Source of the DNA: Bacteroidales bacterium
GTDB taxonomy: Bacteria > Bacteroidota > Bacteroidia > Bacteroidales > JAADGE01
Reading direction: 5' to 3'
NCBI GenBank assembly: GCA_021648725.1
Contig: JAKISF010000003.1
Span: 1-64,000, forward strand
DNA length: 64,000 nucleotides
A program made the translations under genes and the position numbers. The notes under the pieces were generated by a model. It made no database searches, was not told where the DNA came from, and was given only the letters and a program-made list of their open reading frames with translations. Positions 27,584-57,242 of this stretch are shown here, in pieces (position 1 is the stretch's first letter; each line of letters starts with the position of its first letter).

Positions 27584-27656
27584 GGCTCCGTAGTTCAATG
27601 GATAGAATATCAGATTTCGGCTCTGAGGGTTGTGGGTTCGAGTCCCGCCGGGGTCA
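27584..27656 (+). tRNA. tRNA-Arg (anticodon UCG)
   Basis: The 73-nt sequence folds as a standard cloverleaf: acceptor GGCTCCG/CGGGGTC with wobble pairs, a D-arm GTTC/GAAT, an anticodon arm CAGA/TCTG with loop TTTCGGC (anticodon TCG after the invariant T33), and a T-arm GTGGG/TCCCGC with loop TTCGAG. CCA is not encoded. Its 3' 16 nt plus 7 downstream bases form the left attachment repeat of the island. Confidence 0.92.
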
Positions 27657-27663
27657 CTAATAT
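27641..27663 (+). repeat. attL: left copy of the 23-bp att repeat
   Basis: It covers the last 16 nt of tRNA-Arg (T-arm 3' strand and acceptor) and 7 bases beyond. It is identical to 57220-57242, and sequence similarity falls off directly outside it. Confidence 0.9.
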
Positions 27664-30808: not shown

Positions 30809-32101
30809 TTATTCTTTTATTACCGGTAGCTTTATACCTATTTTAAACATTTGAACAAATTCTTTGATTTCGTTTGATTCGTCATTCAGGTTAATTTCAT
30901 TGAAATTTTCTATACCGGATTCTTGATTCGGATAAATTATCAGACAATCAATTATTTCATTATGGTCTTTTTCTAATTTATTGTAAACAGATTTAAGCCG
31001 GGCATAACCACTTACTTGTCTCATGTCTATGTTTTTAAAATGTGAATCATATGCAGGCTTGTATTTTGCATCAATTACCATTTTGTATTCATTGCTGTTG
31101 AGTAAAAAGTCTAATTCATTTCCGAGATATGTGTAATGATAATTTACATGATTTCCGAATTTGTCTTTTAATAAACCGAGTGTGTACAATTCAAATAGTT
31201 TACTCATATCAATCCAAAACGGTGGTATTTTAGCTTTTTCTTTATTGTTAATGTTGTTTACAGAATAACCGAATCGTTTTAATATCCATAATGCCAACTT
31301 CACAGCTTCTTTATATTCGGAATATATTGCATTTGATTTTATTTGCTTTATTTCATTGAAACTTACATCTTCACTGACCTGAACAAATGCCGGATTAATA
31401 TATCCGAACAGTTCGTTGTAATTATTATTTATACCGGACATGTTTTGACCGGATAAATATTTCTGTACAAAAGTTAATGCTTTTTTCAGTAATCTGTTTT
31501 CAATGTTGTTAATTCCAAACTCATCATAAGTACAGACCGTATTTAAATTTTTACTTTTAAAGTGGTTTTGTTTTATTGTTTCAGCAATATTAATCTTTCC
31601 TTTTACTTTTCCGAATAAGTTATCTGTTTTTCTGTAATATGATTTTTTAAGCCCTTTTTTTACAATTTCTTTTATGATTTTAATAAAATGAATTGCAAGC
31701 AATGGTGTAAGAAGGTCTTGATGTTTTTCTATTTCAACCGGTTTTGATTCAAACCTAATATCATATAAATCATTTGTGTGTTTATACACTTCCGGATGAT
31801 TTAAGGCATGGAACAGCATATTTATGTAATTTAACCGAACGCCTTCTTTGTTTAATTTCGGTTCGACAACTATAATTTTGTTGTCTGTTATCCAATCAAT
31901 ACCTATGTAATAGCTTGTGTGGAGAGTATTGTTGCTTTTGAGTTCAACACATCGTTTTTCTTTATTGTTTTTGAAATATACAGATGAGTTTATATCCCCG
32001 ACTTTTTCATTCGGGATTTGCTCACCATGCGGATATTTATGATGCTCTGTAAAAACTTTATTTAAAAACAAATCAATCATATTAAACTGAAAGTTTTTCA
32101 A
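30809..32101 (-). CDS. mcrC: McrC-type nuclease subunit of the McrBC system
   Basis: A 430-residue McrC. The N-terminal half is the conserved McrC body. The C-terminal PD-(D/E)XK core is ELDFLL (Asp331) and MVIDAKYK (Asp344, Lys346), with FELYTLG (Glu304) before it. With McrB it cuts DNA carrying modified cytosines (known for E. coli McrBC). Its start overlaps the mcrB end by 20 bp, so the two are translationally coupled. Confidence 0.9.
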   Translation of the reverse strand: MKNFQFNMIDLFLNKVFTEHHKYPHGEQIPNEKVGDINSSVYFKNNKEKRCVELKSNNTLHTSYYIGIDWITDNKIIVVEPKLNKEGVRLNYINMLFHALNHPEVYKHTNDLYDIRFESKPVEIEKHQDLLTPLLAIHFIKIIKEIVKKGLKKSYYRKTDNLFGKVKGKINIAETIKQNHFKSKNLNTVCTYDEFGINNIENRLLKKALTFVQKYLSGQNMSGINNNYNELFGYINPAFVQVSEDVSFNEIKQIKSNAIYSEYKEAVKLALWILKRFGYSVNNINNKEKAKIPPFWIDMSKLFELYTLGLLKDKFGNHVNYHYTYLGNELDFLLNSNEYKMVIDAKYKPAYDSHFKNIDMRQVSGYARLKSVYNKLEKDHNEIIDCLIIYPNQESGIENFNEINLNDESNEIKEFVQMFKIGIKLPVIKE

Positions 32102-34001
32102 TTATTTCTTTTGCACTTTCCAAAAGAACTCCGTCTTTTAAGTATTCATTGAGAATAGGTTTTATTTCATATTCAAGTCTCATGTTTAAGTTTTTTTCCT
32201 CTCCCATAAAATAACTGTGCCCAACCATTACATCCAAAGGGTTAAATTCTTGTGAAAGATGTAACGAACGCTCCGGATTATCTTTATTGTTTTCATAATC
32301 ATTGCAAAACAGTTCAGTCATTTTGATAAATAAATTCTGACCTTTTTCTGTTTCGATAATTGTTTTATCCGGATTAATATTTACGAAAGCAAAGCGTCTT
32401 CGAATTGCATAATCTATATGCCCGACACTTCTGTCTGCCGTATTCATAGTGCCTATAATGAATAAGTTCTTCGGTAAGGTAATCTGTTTGCTTTCCGGAT
32501 TGTCATCATCATCATCATCATATAAAGCATACATACTTTCAACCGTTGTTTCTTCCGGATTGTTTTCATCGTAACGGTATTCGAGGGCATATATTAATTC
32601 ACCGAGAACAGCCGGAAGATTCGCTCTGTTTATTTCATCGATAATGAGGACGAAATTTGCTTTGGGGCTGTCGAGTGCTTTTTGAGCAAATTTTGCTAAA
32701 ACTTTATTCTTTACACTGTATTGAATCCTATTTTCATCATCAGTTTCTACGGTTATACCTCTTACAAAATCTTCATAAGTATATGCCGGATGAAATTGAA
32801 TTACCTTATATTCTCCATTTGTTAATATTTGATTTTTCTCAATTTTAACCGGAACTTTTAAATCAAATTTGTCAAAAAGGAAGAACATAAATTCAAAATT
32901 TGTTATATCAACACTGTATTCTTTCTTCTTCTGTAAAAATAAGTCTTGAACTTTCTTGTTTTTTTCCAGTAATGAAATACCTTCCGGAGAAATATCGAAT
33001 AACTTTAAAACATTATCAATAAATTCTTCTTTACTTATAGGGAAATAAATGTCAGGGTGGTAGCTGTGGAGAATTTTGAGAACTAAACCTTTGCTTAAAT
33101 ATTTAATTGTTTTTTCCGGATTGATATTCTCTGCAATAGTATGAAGTTGTTCTCCAATCATTTTTATTGCTGTATCATCATCATGGTTTTTCAGAAATGC
33201 ACTTTTTCTAAATTCTTCTTTTGATTTGCTCCAATAAATTTTAAATTTTGTTGCAGGACCTGTATATTTTCCAAGATGTTCCAAGCCATATTCAATCCAC
33301 CATGAGAATGTTTGAGAACCAAAACCTAAAACATAATTGTCTAATTCAATTTCTTTTAGTTTATCTTTCGGGAACTCTTTTTGAAACGTTTCCAATAAAG
33401 TGTTTTGTTTTTTTCTAAACTTGATAGTTTCTTTATCCGGATTGAATGATTTAAAAAACTCATTAATAATTAGCAAAGGACTTCCTAATTTTACCGGTTT
33501 TGTTAATTGTTTTGCTACTTCTTTTGCTGTGAAAGTTTTACCTGTTCCCGGAGCACCTTGCAGAATAATTTGATGCTTTAATTTTAACAAATTATTAATT
33601 TCTTTCATTCTTTCGTTTTTGTTTAGGATATTCATATAATTTACCACATACTCAAACATCTTATCTTGTCTCATAAATTCAATAGTTTTGCGGTATGAAA
33701 TACCGTCAAAATCTTTTGGTAAGGAATCATTTTTTAACCAATTTACATTAAATGAAAACCAGCTGTTTTTTGATATAACTATACCAATCCCTTTCAGTTT
33801 AGTGAAAGTTATTGAATGATTTTTCCCTTTTGTTGAACTTGATTTCATTATTATAATGTCACCAATTTCAACTTGATTCAAATATCTCTCATTTTGATTA
33901 TTATCATTTGCGGCATAACCGTCATACCAAACACTTTCTTTTATAAAACTATCTGATACATCTTTACCTTCGAATGATGCTCCTACTGCCCAATAATTCA
34001 T
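32082..34001 (-). CDS. mcrB: McrB-type AAA+ GTPase/ATPase with N-terminal EVE-like domain
   Basis: A 639-residue McrB. Residues 1-105 (MNYWAVGASFEGKD, QVEIGDIIIMKSS, GIGIVIS) look like an EVE/PUA-like domain that reads modified bases. The AAA+ domain has Walker A GAPGTGKT (149-156), a roughly 240-residue helical insert, Walker B LIIDEINRANLP (452-463) and the McrB signature MNTADRS (519-525). A run of six Asp (495-500) stems from an ATC triplet repeat. It overlaps the RhuM gene by 4 bp (ATGA) and mcrC by 20 bp, so all three form one operon. The insert between Walker A and B is longer than in E. coli McrB. Confidence 0.92.
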   Translation of the reverse strand: MNYWAVGASFEGKDVSDSFIKESVWYDGYAANDNNQNERYLNQVEIGDIIIMKSSSTKGKNHSITFTKLKGIGIVISKNSWFSFNVNWLKNDSLPKDFDGISYRKTIEFMRQDKMFEYVVNYMNILNKNERMKEINNLLKLKHQIILQGAPGTGKTFTAKEVAKQLTKPVKLGSPLLIINEFFKSFNPDKETIKFRKKQNTLLETFQKEFPKDKLKEIELDNYVLGFGSQTFSWWIEYGLEHLGKYTGPATKFKIYWSKSKEEFRKSAFLKNHDDDTAIKMIGEQLHTIAENINPEKTIKYLSKGLVLKILHSYHPDIYFPISKEEFIDNVLKLFDISPEGISLLEKNKKVQDLFLQKKKEYSVDITNFEFMFFLFDKFDLKVPVKIEKNQILTNGEYKVIQFHPAYTYEDFVRGITVETDDENRIQYSVKNKVLAKFAQKALDSPKANFVLIIDEINRANLPAVLGELIYALEYRYDENNPEETTVESMYALYDDDDDDNPESKQITLPKNLFIIGTMNTADRSVGHIDYAIRRRFAFVNINPDKTIIETEKGQNLFIKMTELFCNDYENNKDNPERSLHLSQEFNPLDVMVGHSYFMGEEKNLNMRLEYEIKPILNEYLKDGVLLESAKEIIEKLSV

Positions 34002-44901: not shown

Positions 44902-46998
44902 TTATAAAAACCATAAATTCTTTTTGCCGAATGGGGGCAGTGTGTTTCCTGTGAAATAAGGGAAGAGTTCTGCGACCATCTCCGGATATTTTATTGTTAC
45001 GGGTAATTTTTGTTGTTTTACTGATTTCCAATACATACGACTGAATTGGTATATTTGGTCTATTAATAAATTGATTGTTGTCTTGCTTTCAATCAGTTTT
45101 TCATCGGTTGACCAAAAACTTAATTTAACCGGAAAGGGGTAACTTTCAATTTTAAATTCAGGATTGCTGCCGTATCTTGTATTGTTGCATAAGAGGTATT
45201 GACTTTTGCCAATTTTTAGTGATGTTCCGCTTAAAGGAATTAAATTGTTAAAATTTGTATCAAAAGGAACGTAATCAAAACTTTCTGTTTTGTTTATCGT
45301 TACTATTATTATCGGAACATTATAGTTGAGGCTTTGCAGGGCTTCTTGTATTGGTCTTATGTTTTTGTTTGACATGGTTTTGTAGAAATGGATAATAAGA
45401 CGTTTTATGTCTTTGTTATCTTTCTTAAATTTTTCTACTGCTGTTCTTATTGAACCTGCCAGTTTAATCATGTTGTTTTCTCGGAAAGCGTCAAAACTTT
45501 GAAAGTGTCCTTCGTTTGAGAAAGAAAAAGCACTGCCGATATATCGGGAATCAAATTTTAAAGATTTGAATGCTCCGATGCCTACTATTAGTTCTTTTTC
45601 TACTGTTCGTTCCAGTCTCCACGGTATTCCGTCAAGTTTTGCGGATATTGATACAAAAATATTTTGTAAGGTCCACTCAAAGCCATAACCTCCAATATTA
45701 TCAATATTTATGACTTGTGACGTGATACCCGGTTTTAATAATGCTTCTTTTATAAGGTAATACGCTCTGTGTTGTTCCGGATTAGATTCTGTTTTACTAA
45801 TCGGACTTATGTATATTGCTATGTATCTTTTATTATTTGTCTTATAATCGTTTTTTTCTATTGCTTTTAATACTTCGGGAGCCGGATTGTTTATATTTTC
45901 AAAAAGTATATGACCGGCTTTATAATTTTTATGTGTTACTCCAATATATTTTGATATGCCTGCATATATTGAGTTTCCGTTTTTATCTTTTGCTATGGGT
46001 TTGTCGTATTTTGAAATTGGTTTTTTGCCTTTAAAATAGTCGTCAAATTCCTTAACTTTCTTTTCATGGTCTTTATGACAGATATAGAAAAACTCAATGT
46101 CTTGTGAGTCGGGCGGATGTTTGTAAACTCCTGAATTGATACCAAACTTCGGACTGATATTGGTTTTTTCTTGTCCGAATATCATTTTATTACTGTCGTG
46201 AGATGTTGAAAATATGTTATCCGGATTGAAGCTTATAAATTCATTTGTATTTATAGGAATTATATTTTTAAAGTCGCTTGTAATGATATGCTTTTTAAGA
46301 AAATCATTAATGAGTGTATAGTGCTTTTTGTATTTGTTAACTATCTTAAAGGTATTATCAAACGGAATATTCAGACTGTTTTTGAGATTGTAGTTTAGTG
46401 CCGGATATACGTTTTGTAATTCATATTTTGCTTGGTCGGGTAAGTATTTGTATTTATGAATATGTTTGTTCCAGATTACTCTTGTGTAGTCATCTTTATC
46501 AATGTCATCCAATTCAAGAATACTTTCTTTAAATACTTTTGAGAGTGCATGGTAGGCAATCAGAAGTTCCGGATAATCTGAAACTCTGCTGTTTTGAACT
46601 CTTAACCGGAAAACATGGTATGCATTAAATTGTTCATCGCTTTCTTTTTCATCTTTAAACCATACTAATAAATCGTTTATGAAATCGAATTGTATTGCAT
46701 CTGCTACATTTTTGAAATATTCGTAAATCAAATATGTGTAATAATGGTTTGCAAATGTTGTGCTTTCTTTTAGGTTTACGGTTAGGTTTATGTCTTCGGA
46801 AGTTGATTTGAAATCGGTATATAAATATTTTATTTCATCATACTTTTCAGAATCTGCCTGTTCCTGTAAATTGGTCGGACATTCTTTTTTTTTGATAGGG
46901 AAAAAGCCTTGTTTTTTTTCGTAGGAAAAGGAAAAGTTTTTTTCATCTTCTTCGGGGTTGAAGGTTAGGATGTTTATTTTGATGTTTTGGTCAATCAT
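44902..46998 (-). CDS. Prokaryotic Argonaute, long type, PIWI catalytic residues missing
   Basis: A 698-residue Argonaute. The MID domain shows the four 5'-end-binding residues Tyr413, Lys417, Gln428 and Lys454 (YYLIKEALLKPGITSQV; SAKLDGIPW), with the spacing of Rhodobacter Ago. The PIWI domain runs from about 468 to the end (LIVGIGAF; RLIIHFYK; MYWKSVKQQKLPVTIKYPEM; C-terminal LWFL). The first catalytic Asp is Gly475, the HRDG-type motif is HFYK (537-540), and Lys670 sits where the last tetrad residue is expected, so slicing is very unlikely. The N-terminal 400 residues are divergent. Inactive long Argonautes act with partner effectors; here the next gene is hsdM, 21 bp away. Confidence 0.9.
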   Translation of the reverse strand: MIDQNIKINILTFNPEEDEKNFSFSYEKKQGFFPIKKKECPTNLQEQADSEKYDEIKYLYTDFKSTSEDINLTVNLKESTTFANHYYTYLIYEYFKNVADAIQFDFINDLLVWFKDEKESDEQFNAYHVFRLRVQNSRVSDYPELLIAYHALSKVFKESILELDDIDKDDYTRVIWNKHIHKYKYLPDQAKYELQNVYPALNYNLKNSLNIPFDNTFKIVNKYKKHYTLINDFLKKHIITSDFKNIIPINTNEFISFNPDNIFSTSHDSNKMIFGQEKTNISPKFGINSGVYKHPPDSQDIEFFYICHKDHEKKVKEFDDYFKGKKPISKYDKPIAKDKNGNSIYAGISKYIGVTHKNYKAGHILFENINNPAPEVLKAIEKNDYKTNNKRYIAIYISPISKTESNPEQHRAYYLIKEALLKPGITSQVINIDNIGGYGFEWTLQNIFVSISAKLDGIPWRLERTVEKELIVGIGAFKSLKFDSRYIGSAFSFSNEGHFQSFDAFRENNMIKLAGSIRTAVEKFKKDNKDIKRLIIHFYKTMSNKNIRPIQEALQSLNYNVPIIIVTINKTESFDYVPFDTNFNNLIPLSGTSLKIGKSQYLLCNNTRYGSNPEFKIESYPFPVKLSFWSTDEKLIESKTTINLLIDQIYQFSRMYWKSVKQQKLPVTIKYPEMVAELFPYFTGNTLPPFGKKNLWFL

Positions 46999-47534: not shown

Positions 47535-47864
47535 CTATGTCAGGTCATTGATTTCTGCATCGGGTGCATTTGTTTTAACTGATTCAATTCCGTTGTCTCT
47601 TGATGAGGTGCTTTCGTACATTTCACTTGTACCAATGATTTGACCATTGGTTGCAGTTAAATTGAAATATGGCTTGCCGTTTTTAGCTTCAAGACGTTTG
47701 AATCTGTTATCGTCTTGTGAGTTTGTTCTTACTGATTCAATTCCGTTGTTGCATCCGGCTTTTGATGTATATCCTTCGCTTGTCAGAATTACTTGACCGT
47801 TCCCTGCTTTCAAATTGAATTGAAATTCATCGTTCTTTCTTTTTGTAATCTCGAATTTTCCCAT
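47535..47864 (-). CDS. YegP/DUF1508-family protein
   Basis: A 109-residue protein made of two DUF1508 repeats: GKFEITKRKNDEFQFNLKA with SEGYTSKAGCNNGIESV, and PYFNLTATNGQIIGTSEMY with RDNGIESVKTNA. Each repeat is a small beta-beta-alpha unit. The function of the family is not established. It is a single-gene unit between viperin and Argonaute, with a strong terminator. Confidence 0.88.
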   Translation of the reverse strand: MGKFEITKRKNDEFQFNLKAGNGQVILTSEGYTSKAGCNNGIESVRTNSQDDNRFKRLEAKNGKPYFNLTATNGQIIGTSEMYESTSSRDNGIESVKTNAPDAEINDLT

Positions 47865-48047: not shown

Positions 48048-48941
48048 TTAAACTATCGTTTTTAACTTTTGTAATTTCTCTGTCTTTATATAATAATCTC
48101 CTTTTCTGTTTATAAATTTGTTGTAATTATACTCCATTTGATTATAACATGAATCAATATCTTTAAAAAGAATTGAATGACTGTAAAAGTAATTACCGTT
48201 TATGTTGTTGAAAAATCGTCCGGCAGGGTCAAGCATAACATAAGAATTTGTCATTGCTTCATTATTCTCAATAATTGCATTATCCGGATTGATTTTTATA
48301 AAATGCTTAAATTCAACTTTTGAGATTAAGAAATTATCAATGTTTTTATCATTTTCACCGGTTATCGGTAATACTTGAAATATTTTCCATCTTTCCGGTT
48401 GCAACAACTTTATTTTATCAGACATTTTTTCATTGAAATTGTATTTATGTACAACTGTGTTAATTTTAAATCCTATATCTAAATTTCGGACATTCTTTGC
48501 CAATAAATAATAATCTGAAAAACTTAATGTATTTTTGTTTGTTGCTCTACCGGATACAAAATTTGTTTGCTCCACGAAACTGTCCATACTGACTGTAATC
48601 CAATCTGCAATATTTCTGAATTTTTCTAATAGTGCTTTGTTTCTTGCAAAGACATAACCGTTTGTAACAATATTTGTTAACAAACCTTTCTTTTTTGCAA
48701 GCAATACTAAATCATACAGCCACGGGCAGAGTGTCGGTTCTCCGCCTACAAATGTTATTTTCTTGAAACCAAAGTCAGCAATTTTATTTACAATTTTAAT
48801 TGCATCTTCTTTTGATAAATGACCTTTCGGTAAAATTGTTCTTTTAACATCTTGAAATGTTGCAAAACAAAATTTACAACGCATGTTACAGGGTTCCCAT
48901 AAATGGAAATTAACGCTTGGAATTAAATTTTCTTTGTTCAT
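48048..48941 (-). CDS. Prokaryotic viperin (radical SAM antiviral nucleotide synthase)
   Basis: A 297-residue radical-SAM enzyme. The cluster motif is CNMRCKFC (Cys18, Cys22, Cys25), GGEP is at 66-69, and the later segments FKINTVVHKYN (158-168), QPERWKIFQVLPITGEN (181-197) and NNEAMTNSYVMLDPAGRF (226-243) match animal viperin (FKINSVINRFN, NPVRWKVFQCLLIEGEN, NQKMKDSYLILDEYMRF). Viperins convert a nucleoside triphosphate to its 3'-deoxy-3',4'-didehydro form, which stops viral polymerases. The base used here (C, G or U) is unknown. It lacks the N-terminal amphipathic helix of animal viperin. It follows the nuclease-TPR gene by 58 bp. Confidence 0.93.
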   Translation of the reverse strand: MNKENLIPSVNFHLWEPCNMRCKFCFATFQDVKRTILPKGHLSKEDAIKIVNKIADFGFKKITFVGGEPTLCPWLYDLVLLAKKKGLLTNIVTNGYVFARNKALLEKFRNIADWITVSMDSFVEQTNFVSGRATNKNTLSFSDYYLLAKNVRNLDIGFKINTVVHKYNFNEKMSDKIKLLQPERWKIFQVLPITGENDKNIDNFLISKVEFKHFIKINPDNAIIENNEAMTNSYVMLDPAGRFFNNINGNYFYSHSILFKDIDSCYNQMEYNYNKFINRKGDYYIKTEKLQKLKTIV

Positions 48942-48999
48942 AATAGTACGATTTTAAAAGTTATCTCGGAGAGATTGAATCATATATTATGAGGATTGC

Positions 49000-51456
49000 T
49001 TATTTGCTATCTAATTCTTTTGCTGTTACTAACATGTTTTGCCATATAAAGTAATCTTTTCTTAATTTTAAAGCTTTATCGTATTGTTGCATTGCTGTTT
49101 CTTTTTGGCCAAGTTCAGCAAGACAGGTTGCTATTAAATCAATGTAACTTGCTTCATGTGGATTTATTTTATGTGCTTTTTCAAAATGAATAATTGCATT
49201 GTTATAATCTTTTTGTTCAAAATATTCATTTCCTATGTCAAACTGTTTAAATTCATTTTCATCGTCCGGAACATTTGATGGAGTGAACGCTTTTTTATAA
49301 TAAGAATGACGGTAATTCAGACCATATTCAGGCTGTTGATATATTATAAAATCTTTATCAATTTTTTTAAATTCTTTTGCTATATTTTTCCATATCTCAT
49401 CTTCCTTTAAAACATTATAAAATTTTTGCAAAATATTATCTAATTGTCTGTCAAAAAAAAGTGCATAGAAATTAAATTCAAAAAAGCTTTTCTTTAAAAT
49501 ATCGTTTATCATTTCACCGTCTTGTTCCATTGATGTTGTTATGATTAAAGGCAAAATCTTCTTGACTTTTTGCATGTCTATTCCAAGTTTTTTGTTAATC
49601 CATTCATGATTTTGTTCGTCTTTAAGAAATTTTTGAATTTTTATTAATTGATGTGATGCGTGTTCATTTATTTCTTTTCGCTCTATTTGTAATTCATGTA
49701 ATTGCTTCCTGAAACGTGTTCGTTTCAATTCAACTAATAATAATATTCCTTCATGCAAAATATACACATCAATATCACCTATTATTATTTCTTTTCCATT
49801 TTCGTTTTTTTTACAGACATCTTTTGAAACTCCAATTTTATCAAATTTGTAGCCGGAAAACAATTCAAGAAAATATTTTTCAAAGTCTTTATCTTCTTGT
49901 TGTGTCAATCTTATGGGTCTTAATTTTTTAAATTGTGTTTTATGAAAATATGTATTTTCTCTAATAATATTATATGAATTTGTCAGTTTACCCAAAAAAC
50001 TTTCTAAACTTATAATATAACTATTCAATTCAAATAGAGGTTGTGCAACAATATTTACAAAAGGGGTATGCCTGTTAAAATATTTTTTTGGGGTATCTTT
50101 TACTGGATTAAAACACAAAACATTTCGAATTTCTTTTGAATCATTTTGCATTTTTAAGGTATTACCAAGCATATTGGAAAATTCTTTTACAGACTCAAAA
50201 CGAACACCTAAATGCCCGGTCAACGGAGCAAATAATAAAGACTCTATTCCGCTATTCCCGGTAGTTTGCTGATATTCATGTAACGGATTATAATATTTTT
50301 CTGTTGCATTGTGAATTAAACCATTCAGTAAGTGTGAAATTGCACTTACCTCTATTTTTTTTTCGGCTACTTCATAATGAGTATATTGCATAGAGTTTAA
50401 TATTATAGATTGGGAAATATCTCTAATTGCCTCTCTTTTATTTATATCTTTATCTTGTTGAGTTTTTCCGGGTATTTTTGATATGTTATCTTTAACATAA
50501 AGTTCTGCAATTTCATAGTTGCTTGCTTCGATAAACATAGGTAAAAATTCAATTTTCTTTCCTATTGTTCTCCATTTTGATTCTTCAATAGTATCTATGC
50601 AGTTTAAGTGAAAACTATATTTTGTTTCCGACAAATAATAATTGTCATAAAATAAATATACACTTGCAATATCTTCAACAAAAACATTCCACTTTTGCAG
50701 TTTTTTTAAACTTTCAAAATATTTATTTTTTGAATTTTCAATACATTGCATAAGGATTCTCATACTGTTTTCTATGAAAATCTTTTCATTTATTGTATAT
50801 GTTTTATTGTCTTTTGATTCAAAAAAGTAATATGAAAAAAGAACATTAAGAGAGGTATATAAATGATTTGATTTATTAAGTCTATCAGATTCTACAATAT
50901 AATATGAGGCATATGCAAATAATTCGACAGGATTTAAATTTAGCCAAATTTTAGCATCTGATTCGAACTCTTGCCAAAGATTTGTTTCAATTTCATTTAC
51001 ATAAATTATAAATTCAGAAAATAACTTTAACTCCGAATTTTTTGATGTAGTAAATTGCCGGATATTATTAATGAATTTGTCATTAAATACAGGCTTGTAT
51101 TTGCTTGTTTTGAATTTTTCAATAAAAAGTTTCGGGTTTATTTCCGAAACAGGTTTATTGAAGTTATTATTTGCATTAGCTTCTTTTTTGAAATAGTAGT
51201 CAAACAGCAAATCAACTTTTTCAATATACTTATTGTTTTTTATTAATTCAGGAAAGTGTTTTGATTTAATAATTGCAGACCAGAAATCATTTTTGAAATG
51301 ATATTTGCCATTTACATTTCTATTATTTGGGTTTTTTGGCAATAAAATTTTTAACCAATCTTTGAAGTTTAATTGGTCAATCAGGTTGAAAAACTCTGTG
51401 TATTTGCCTTCTATTATTAGTTGAAGGGCTTCTTTTTGTTTAATTCTAACATCCAT
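49000..51456 (-). CDS. Large unknown protein with PD-(D/E)XK nuclease-like domain and C-terminal TPRs
   Basis: An 818-residue protein not recognised as a known family. Residues 1-510 are helical and divergent. Residues about 520-680 look like a restriction-nuclease fold: an EKYFLELF helix with Glu525, GDIDVYIL (Asp561/Asp563) and LLLVELKRT (Glu576-x-Lys578), then a helix with Gln/Glu. Residues about 735-810 form two TPR units (NEYFEQKDYNNAIIHFEKAH, LAELGQKETAMQQYDKAL). It lies 58 bp upstream of viperin on the same strand, so the two are likely one operon. A -7-like TATATTTG (51510-51517) and the palindrome AACTCATTGAGTT (51476-51488) precede it. Confidence 0.7.
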   Translation of the reverse strand: MDVRIKQKEALQLIIEGKYTEFFNLIDQLNFKDWLKILLPKNPNNRNVNGKYHFKNDFWSAIIKSKHFPELIKNNKYIEKVDLLFDYYFKKEANANNNFNKPVSEINPKLFIEKFKTSKYKPVFNDKFINNIRQFTTSKNSELKLFSEFIIYVNEIETNLWQEFESDAKIWLNLNPVELFAYASYYIVESDRLNKSNHLYTSLNVLFSYYFFESKDNKTYTINEKIFIENSMRILMQCIENSKNKYFESLKKLQKWNVFVEDIASVYLFYDNYYLSETKYSFHLNCIDTIEESKWRTIGKKIEFLPMFIEASNYEIAELYVKDNISKIPGKTQQDKDINKREAIRDISQSIILNSMQYTHYEVAEKKIEVSAISHLLNGLIHNATEKYYNPLHEYQQTTGNSGIESLLFAPLTGHLGVRFESVKEFSNMLGNTLKMQNDSKEIRNVLCFNPVKDTPKKYFNRHTPFVNIVAQPLFELNSYIISLESFLGKLTNSYNIIRENTYFHKTQFKKLRPIRLTQQEDKDFEKYFLELFSGYKFDKIGVSKDVCKKNENGKEIIIGDIDVYILHEGILLLVELKRTRFRKQLHELQIERKEINEHASHQLIKIQKFLKDEQNHEWINKKLGIDMQKVKKILPLIITTSMEQDGEMINDILKKSFFEFNFYALFFDRQLDNILQKFYNVLKEDEIWKNIAKEFKKIDKDFIIYQQPEYGLNYRHSYYKKAFTPSNVPDDENEFKQFDIGNEYFEQKDYNNAIIHFEKAHKINPHEASYIDLIATCLAELGQKETAMQQYDKALKLRKDYFIWQNMLVTAKELDSK

Positions 51457-55829: not shown

Positions 55830-57035
55830 TTAGTCAAAAAATTTATCCATTGCATCGTCAAGGTCTTGGTTGACAATTTTTGCATAGACTTGTGTTGTTT
55901 TGATTGATGAATGACCTAACAAACGTGAAACGTATTCTATACGCATTCCTTTCTTTAATGCTCTGGTTGCAAATGTGTGTCGGCTTGTATGGAAATGTAT
56001 GTTTTTATCTATCCCTGCCAATTTTGCAATTTTCTTTAAATCCGTATTTGTATATGCTGTATGTGATGAAATTGCTCTGAATAATGCACTTTCAGAATAT
56101 TCAATATCATTTTTCAGAAACGGAAAAATATAATGTTCTTTTTCTGCATCTTCTGTTTTATATTTTTTGATAATTTCTTTTGCTTTGTTCGGTAACTTTA
56201 TTGAAACTGTGGATTTTGTTTTTTTAGTTGTCATTAAGATTCTTTCACCGTCATAATCAGACCACCTTAATTGAAAAATATCTGATATTCTTAAACCTCC
56301 CGCGTAAGTAGCAAATACATATATATTCCTGTGGTGGTTTCTCATTGAGTTTTTTTCAAGTTGTAGTTCTTCAAATCTCCGGATTTCATCCTCTGTTAAA
56401 AATTCTTTTGTTGTTTTTTCTAATTTGAGTTTATATTTATGAAAAGGACTTTTTTCGTATGGTAAGATATCTTCATTAATAGCATCATTTATAACTTTTC
56501 TGATTACTTTCATATTTGAATGAATGGTATTTATTGAATTTCCTAAATTTTCAGATAAATATCTTTCATAACGTTTCAAAAATGTTACAGTCAATTCATT
56601 GAAAGTAATCTTTTTATCGCCTACATATTCGGAAAGTTTTGTGAAAACTGTTTTTGATTTTTTATAATAACTGAATTTGCCGCTTTTTTCAAGTGTGTCA
56701 ATGTATTCACTAAAATATTGCAAGAAACTATGAGGATTTGTTCCCATTATATTATCCTTAATACTTTTTGGGCTTACATATTTTGAATCTGCTTCCATTT
56801 CCAAAGCAACACCTTCCGCTTCTGCTACTTTATGAGCAATAAAATTATTCATTCTTTGTGAGTTCGGATGTGACTTTCTTACTCTTGATTGTCTTTCATT
56901 CCAATCTTTTATTAATATCTTTACACCCAAAGAAATAAATTTAGTTTTTCTGTTTTTAATAATCCGGATGTATAAAGGTGCTTCACCTTTTGAATTAATT
57001 TTGTTCTTTTTGAGAATTATTTTTACTGATGACAT
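55830..57035 (-). CDS. Tyrosine-type site-specific integrase
   Basis: A 401-residue phage-type integrase. The start at 57035 (MSSVKIILKKNKINSKGEA) is preferred over the ATG at 57086, because Bacteroidota integrases begin with this strand. An arm-binding/SAM-like N-terminal half (to about 190) precedes the catalytic domain, with Arg in GGLRISDIFQLRW, HFHTSRHTFATRA (His-x-x-Arg), LLGHSSIKTTQVYAKI (His and nucleophilic Tyr). It recombines the 23-bp tRNA-Arg att core for insertion and excision. It lies 184 bp from attR and is followed by a strong terminator. Confidence 0.93.
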   Translation of the reverse strand: MSSVKIILKKNKINSKGEAPLYIRIIKNRKTKFISLGVKILIKDWNERQSRVRKSHPNSQRMNNFIAHKVAEAEGVALEMEADSKYVSPKSIKDNIMGTNPHSFLQYFSEYIDTLEKSGKFSYYKKSKTVFTKLSEYVGDKKITFNELTVTFLKRYERYLSENLGNSINTIHSNMKVIRKVINDAINEDILPYEKSPFHKYKLKLEKTTKEFLTEDEIRRFEELQLEKNSMRNHHRNIYVFATYAGGLRISDIFQLRWSDYDGERILMTTKKTKSTVSIKLPNKAKEIIKKYKTEDAEKEHYIFPFLKNDIEYSESALFRAISSHTAYTNTDLKKIAKLAGIDKNIHFHTSRHTFATRALKKGMRIEYVSRLLGHSSIKTTQVYAKIVNQDLDDAMDKFFD

Positions 57036-57087
57036 AGCTCTTTGGATTTGTAATTTACTGGTATAAAGATAATAAAAATAATTCAAA

Positions 57088-57219: not shown

Positions 57220-57242
57220 AGTCCCGCCGGGGTCACTAATAT
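57220..57242 (+). repeat. attR: right copy of the 23-bp att repeat
   Basis: It is identical to the 3' end of tRNA-Arg plus 7 bases (27641-27663). No other tRNA sequence is present here, so the intact tRNA is at the left end. Confidence 0.9.

Follow-up and report, generated by a model that had tools for sequence, protein, structure and literature searches.

The question raised by this locus is what a large protein encoded directly upstream of a viperin could contribute to viperin-based defence. Conservation of viperin extends from prokaryotes to humans. The prokaryotic viperins (pVips), reportedly described by Bernheim and colleagues, are established to produce a 3'-deoxy-3',4'-didehydro (ddh) nucleotide that terminates phage transcripts. 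In the 64,000-nucleotide stretch of Bacteroidales DNA analysed here, referred to as the window, the viperin gene lies downstream of a gene for an 818-aa protein, both on the minus strand:

48048..48941, minus strand: viperin gene, radical SAM, 297 aa, CxxxCxxC intact (Pfam, PADLOC, NCBIfam)
48942..48999, no strand: spacer between the nuclease-TPR gene and viperin, 58 bp
49000..51456, minus strand: nuclease-TPR gene of 818 codons (818 aa), diverged 'viperin-associated NERD' (ORF, Pfam, PADLOC, hhalign)

The viperin and the element that carries it

An earlier note on this DNA had described an 818-aa ORF 58 bp upstream of viperin, and both ORFs were found at these positions. Judged from its sequence, the 297-aa protein is a genuine viperin, scoring 283.7 bits against an equivalog cut-off of 180 (NCBIfam NF038283) and matching three PADLOC pVip models, with radical SAM cysteines (C18, C22 and C25, CxxxCxxC) that are invariant across nine aligned viperins. 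From its family membership it would be expected to form the ddh nucleotide. No nucleotide kinase adjoins viperin in the window. The two genes are presumably co-transcribed; simple sigma-70 promoter scans at the locus performed no better than shuffled sequences. Downstream of viperin, at a distance of 183 bp, lies a DUF1508 (YegP-like) gene (47535-47864) followed by a terminator-like hairpin.

Together with several other defence systems, the pair is carried on what appears to be an integrative element (27641-57242, about 29.6 kb) with exact 23-bp repeats at its borders:

27641..27663, plus strand: left 23-bp direct repeat, 3' end of a tRNA-Arg, likely one end of the element
55830..57086, minus strand: tyrosine recombinase, at the element's right end (Pfam)
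57220..57242, plus strand: right 23-bp direct repeat

This setting fits a horizontal spread of the module. On the same element, a prokaryotic Argonaute (44902-46998; Piwi domain, PADLOC pAgo 775 bits) has the viperin pair on one side and a type I restriction system on the other, and positions 30809-34001 hold a McrBC-like pair, formed by an AAA_5 ATPase and an McrBC component. Since the element is so rich in defence genes, we retained as one explanation that the nuclease acts in defence independently, contributes separately and shares the operon of viperin by happenstance, within defence islands; the restriction system, the McrBC-like pair and the Argonaute are what such co-residence would look like.

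Fold and family of the upstream protein

The 818-aa protein can be divided into the following parts:

49054..49260, minus strand: C-terminal TPRs, about residues 733-801 (Pfam, model)
49453..49902, minus strand: predicted PD-(D/E)XK nuclease core, about residues 519-668, in the order helix, three strands, helix, strand (model, structure search)
49723..49731, minus strand: Glu576-Leu577-Lys578 (ExK), Gln-x-Lys in six relatives
49768..49770, minus strand: Asp563, kept in every aligned member covering the position
49879..49881, minus strand: Glu526, helix-A acid, kept in 11 of 12 aligned members
49927..51456, minus strand: N-terminal region, residues 1-510, mostly helical in a low-confidence model, no Pfam match

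The C-terminal TPRs proposed earlier were borne out by a significant Pfam match (two repeats at about residues 739-800, TPR_1 E 2.7e-10) and by a confident model (pLDDT 83-94). The Pfam scan of the whole protein returned nothing beyond these repeats, leaving the N-terminus without a match and revealing no DNA-binding domain, and no ATPase family was matched in Pfam or PADLOC. Membership in the Avs family (STAND NTPases with a C-terminal TPR-like sensor) was rejected, as neither Pfam nor PADLOC gave a STAND ATPase match. Matches of the nuclease domain to PF06100 and CASP_C fell under the curated cut-offs and were treated as chance.

The AlphaFold model of the whole protein had a mean pLDDT of 53.6 and was poor outside the nuclease and the TPRs, with values mostly under 50 in the N-terminal half, and for this reason no fold is claimed for residues 1-510. 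Because the TPRs swamped the structure search with the whole protein, residues 490-700 were folded in isolation with 13 sequences as input, which yielded a model (mean pLDDT 80, pTM 0.75) with an alpha-beta-beta-beta-alpha-beta core. Its best structural matches in the PDB were PD-(D/E)XK nucleases and not an unrelated housekeeping fold: the R.BspD6I small subunit (2p14; Z 9.3 over 133 residues) was followed by Nt.BspD6I (9.1), FokI (8.2), Can2 (7.4), McrC (7.4) and SduA (7.2). Foldseek E-values were modest (best 1.5e-3), and PDB sequences gave no match to the family profile. Asp563, Glu576 and Lys578, which the earlier note had picked out as a D...ExK core, lie on the second strand (D563) and the third strand (E576/K578) of the predicted core and form the signature D-x12-E-x-K. 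D563, K578, A600 and Q603 are invariant in 12 of 12 aligned members, while position 576 is split evenly between E (six members) and Q (six); Q-x-K active sites are known from Mrr/MspJI-type enzymes. The model and the alignment thus support, for the 818-aa protein, a PD-(D/E)XK nuclease fold whose catalytic positions are conserved, and the predicted enzyme may be active, cutting phage or host nucleic acid. Its fold is shared with Can2/Card1, SduA (Shedu) and other PD-(D/E)XK defence nucleases (Z 7.0-7.4), in which the nuclease is likewise coupled to a separate non-nuclease domain; unlike these, the window protein has no Pfam CARF or DUF4263 match, and sequence identity amounts to 10-16%. Membership in Shedu itself was rejected, since DUF4263 was not matched and the resemblance to SduA at Z 7.2 is not specific.

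Although the protein had been taken as unknown, PADLOC-DB (2023) contains a model for a 'Viperin-associated NERD', PDLC02906, which covers most of its length, matching residues 82-690 over profile positions 37-542 of 542 (E 1.1e-8, 32.6 bits); it was the sole viperin-associated model matched in a PADLOC scan of the window protein. The same model scores 708 bits on relatives in Flammeovirga and Neolewinella (L051 and L095), which occupy the same slot beside pVip, and the association of viperin with NERD had therefore been catalogued before. The N-terminus, called unrecognised in the earlier note, has no Pfam match but is covered by the PADLOC model from residue 82 on, and residues 161-660 also align to a profile of three relatives (L095, L063 and L072; hhalign probability 97%, E 5e-11), which places the N-terminal region within the family. 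The Pfam NERD model (PF08378) did not match the window nuclease domain even at E 1, and it matches four relatives, among them full-length L051 above the gathering cut-off (23.6 vs 22.1 bits). PDLC02906 describes an association only, and the window protein differs from it in its distance (32.6 bits) and in the TPRs that lie beyond the 542-position match. Its sequence marks the window protein as a TPR-bearing and divergent variant of an unexplained viperin partner that is already catalogued. This partner is broader than its model: its members are diverged, TPRs are frequent among them, and Pfam NERD misses some of them. The earlier interpretation is accordingly supported in part: right on the fold and, as described below, on recurrence, it overstated the novelty. 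In the literature searched, the scope of which excluded the original pVip paper, no text describing a nuclease-viperin pair and no experimental test of one was found.

Recurrence and divergence of the pairing

When 80 viperin loci were fetched via viperin, from one genome per species and blind to the partner gene, a relative of the 818-aa protein was found directly upstream of viperin on the same strand in 12 of them (L051, L062, L063, L068, L069, L070, L072, L075, L076, L078, L095 and L124). The most diverged of these, L068 (hhalign probability 3% to one subfamily), was counted because it shares the position and has a D...ELK motif and a TPR tail. Independently of these loci, genome G395 provides a thirteenth (L154), in which the gene for a nuclease-TPR protein of 1031 aa stops 57 bp short of viperin. 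The recurrence that the earlier note had proposed as a check was thus observed. The spacers in relatives measure 32-96 bp, most of them 50-60. As the family occurs in only about 1% of 395 genomes of the class, compared with 12 of 80 viperin loci, chance adjacency is negligible. Viperin was detected at E 1e-20 in only two of 395 sampled genomes of the phylum, the window genome and G312, and both carry the pair. An initial search of the phylum mostly returned proteins that matched through TPRs alone, and these were set aside. A scan of genome contigs with the 818-aa protein as sole query gave no relative, probably because the protein is too diverged, and the route via viperin worked. The plasmids searched contained no relative, and viral contigs contained viperins with no nuclease partner near them or in direct scans. 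In another genome (G429, contig 38; L156) the frame of a relative stops just past nuclease helix A at the contig end, possibly representing a broken copy.

The pairing is not strict, since a strong relative in G289 (L003) lies between two unrelated genes without viperin. This viperin-less relative is what an independent defence gene would predict, as is the distribution of the nuclease label on the viperin tree, which is scattered (11 changes vs a shuffled mean of 12.3). Against such independence, the nuclease is always the first gene, on the shared strand and at a short distance, across all 14 loci including the window and even in diverged subfamilies, and four of the five members from profile searches with readable neighbourhoods are paired. 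We therefore consider it quite improbable that the two genes merely share an operon.

TPR tails occur in the paired members of the window, L062, L072, L068 and L154, and the unpaired L003 has C-terminal repeats too, while the remaining complete members have no tail beyond the nuclease; TPR-less pairs are found, for example, in Neolewinella persica and Xanthomarina. Divergence has been far more rapid in the nuclease domain than in viperin, with distances in most pairs of 0.5-0.98 and 0.18-0.56, respectively; L069 and L075, for instance, are separated by 0.18 for viperin but by 0.56 for the nuclease domain. Between two close relatives dN/dS was about 0.25, with few differences to count. The distances in nuclease and viperin do correlate, in favour of a joint module, but weakly (Mantel r 0.28-0.45, with p between 0.0015 and 0.017), and this weakness, together with the scattered label, indicates that partners must frequently have been swapped or lost.

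Some nuclease-paired loci also contain a nucleotide kinase, either adjacent (L070) or fused to viperin (L063). The operons of pVip with a nucleotide kinase (VakA or kinase-viperin fusions) resemble the window in joining an accessory enzyme to viperin and differ in that the window partner has a nuclease fold and no kinase adjoins it. In two viperin-kinase fusions (L063:1696-3096 and L050:9971-11404) the kinase is C-terminal, the reverse of the order in the PADLOC fusion model. The earlier view that viperin acts alone or with a nucleotide kinase was incomplete, as pVip genes adjoining HicA and RelE RNase genes have been published (PMC10865869). They are a separate instance of a nuclease next to viperin, here a ribonuclease, whereas HicA and RelE are small toxins unrelated to the large PD-(D/E)XK protein of the window. 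A TPR-domain protein beside viperin has been reported only from Archaea (PMC12988326); the window shares this neighbourhood, and differs in that its TPRs are fused to a nuclease and occur in Bacteroidota.

Possible roles of the nuclease in viperin defence

The two genes would best be explained as a single viperin-based defence module carried by a mobile element, in which the ddh nucleotide made by viperin would terminate phage transcripts and the upstream protein, a member of the 'viperin-associated NERD' family, would act as an accessory PD-(D/E)XK nuclease, its conserved core being held, targeted or released by the fast-diverging N-terminal part and the optional TPR tail. A viperin operon with an accessory nuclease as its first gene, and with variable, possibly sensory parts, is the reading that we think probably applies. 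It is favoured because the conserved core has variable surroundings, the position is fixed, and the nuclease co-occurs with viperin and its kinase. The variable parts may sense infection or dock a partner, and nuclease and viperin may cooperate.

The strongest rival assigns the upstream protein the role of a sensor or regulator of viperin instead of an effector, its nuclease fold binding nucleic acid or trimming a regulatory RNA and thereby controlling viperin expression or activity. In 19 Bacteroidota-side loci (L048, L049, L052, L053 and 15 others) the gene immediately preceding viperin belongs to a LytTR response regulator family, and in seven Myxococcota loci (L085, L088, L093, L094, L096, L097 and L101) the same position is taken by a family of 420-520-aa proteins, the best-matching of which contains a sigma-70 region 4 domain, so that the upstream slot could be regulatory. 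The faster divergence of the nuclease domain relative to viperin is also what a sensor would show. However, the catalytic positions are kept family-wide, which would be needless for pure binding and speaks against pure regulation, and the lack of a Pfam DNA-binding domain points the same way. We regard a regulatory role as rather unlikely.

The two-arm mechanism suggested in the earlier note would agree with all of the observations. One such reading is a sensor-gated operon with two arms, in which the N-terminal and TPR parts would recognise an infection signal and unleash the nuclease to cut nucleic acid, while the viperin product would terminate transcripts; this we consider doubtful, slightly more so than the regulatory role. 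If it were true, the viperin pathway would possess its own infection-activated nuclease. Because the nuclease partner recurs, keeps its catalytic positions and in some loci accompanies the known kinase, it offers a concrete module for testing cooperation, and is relevant to the activation of prokaryotic viperins and to the reason for their partner genes. As a separate observation, the LytTR-type regulator found upstream of other viperins may represent an inducible viperin switch in Bacteroidota.
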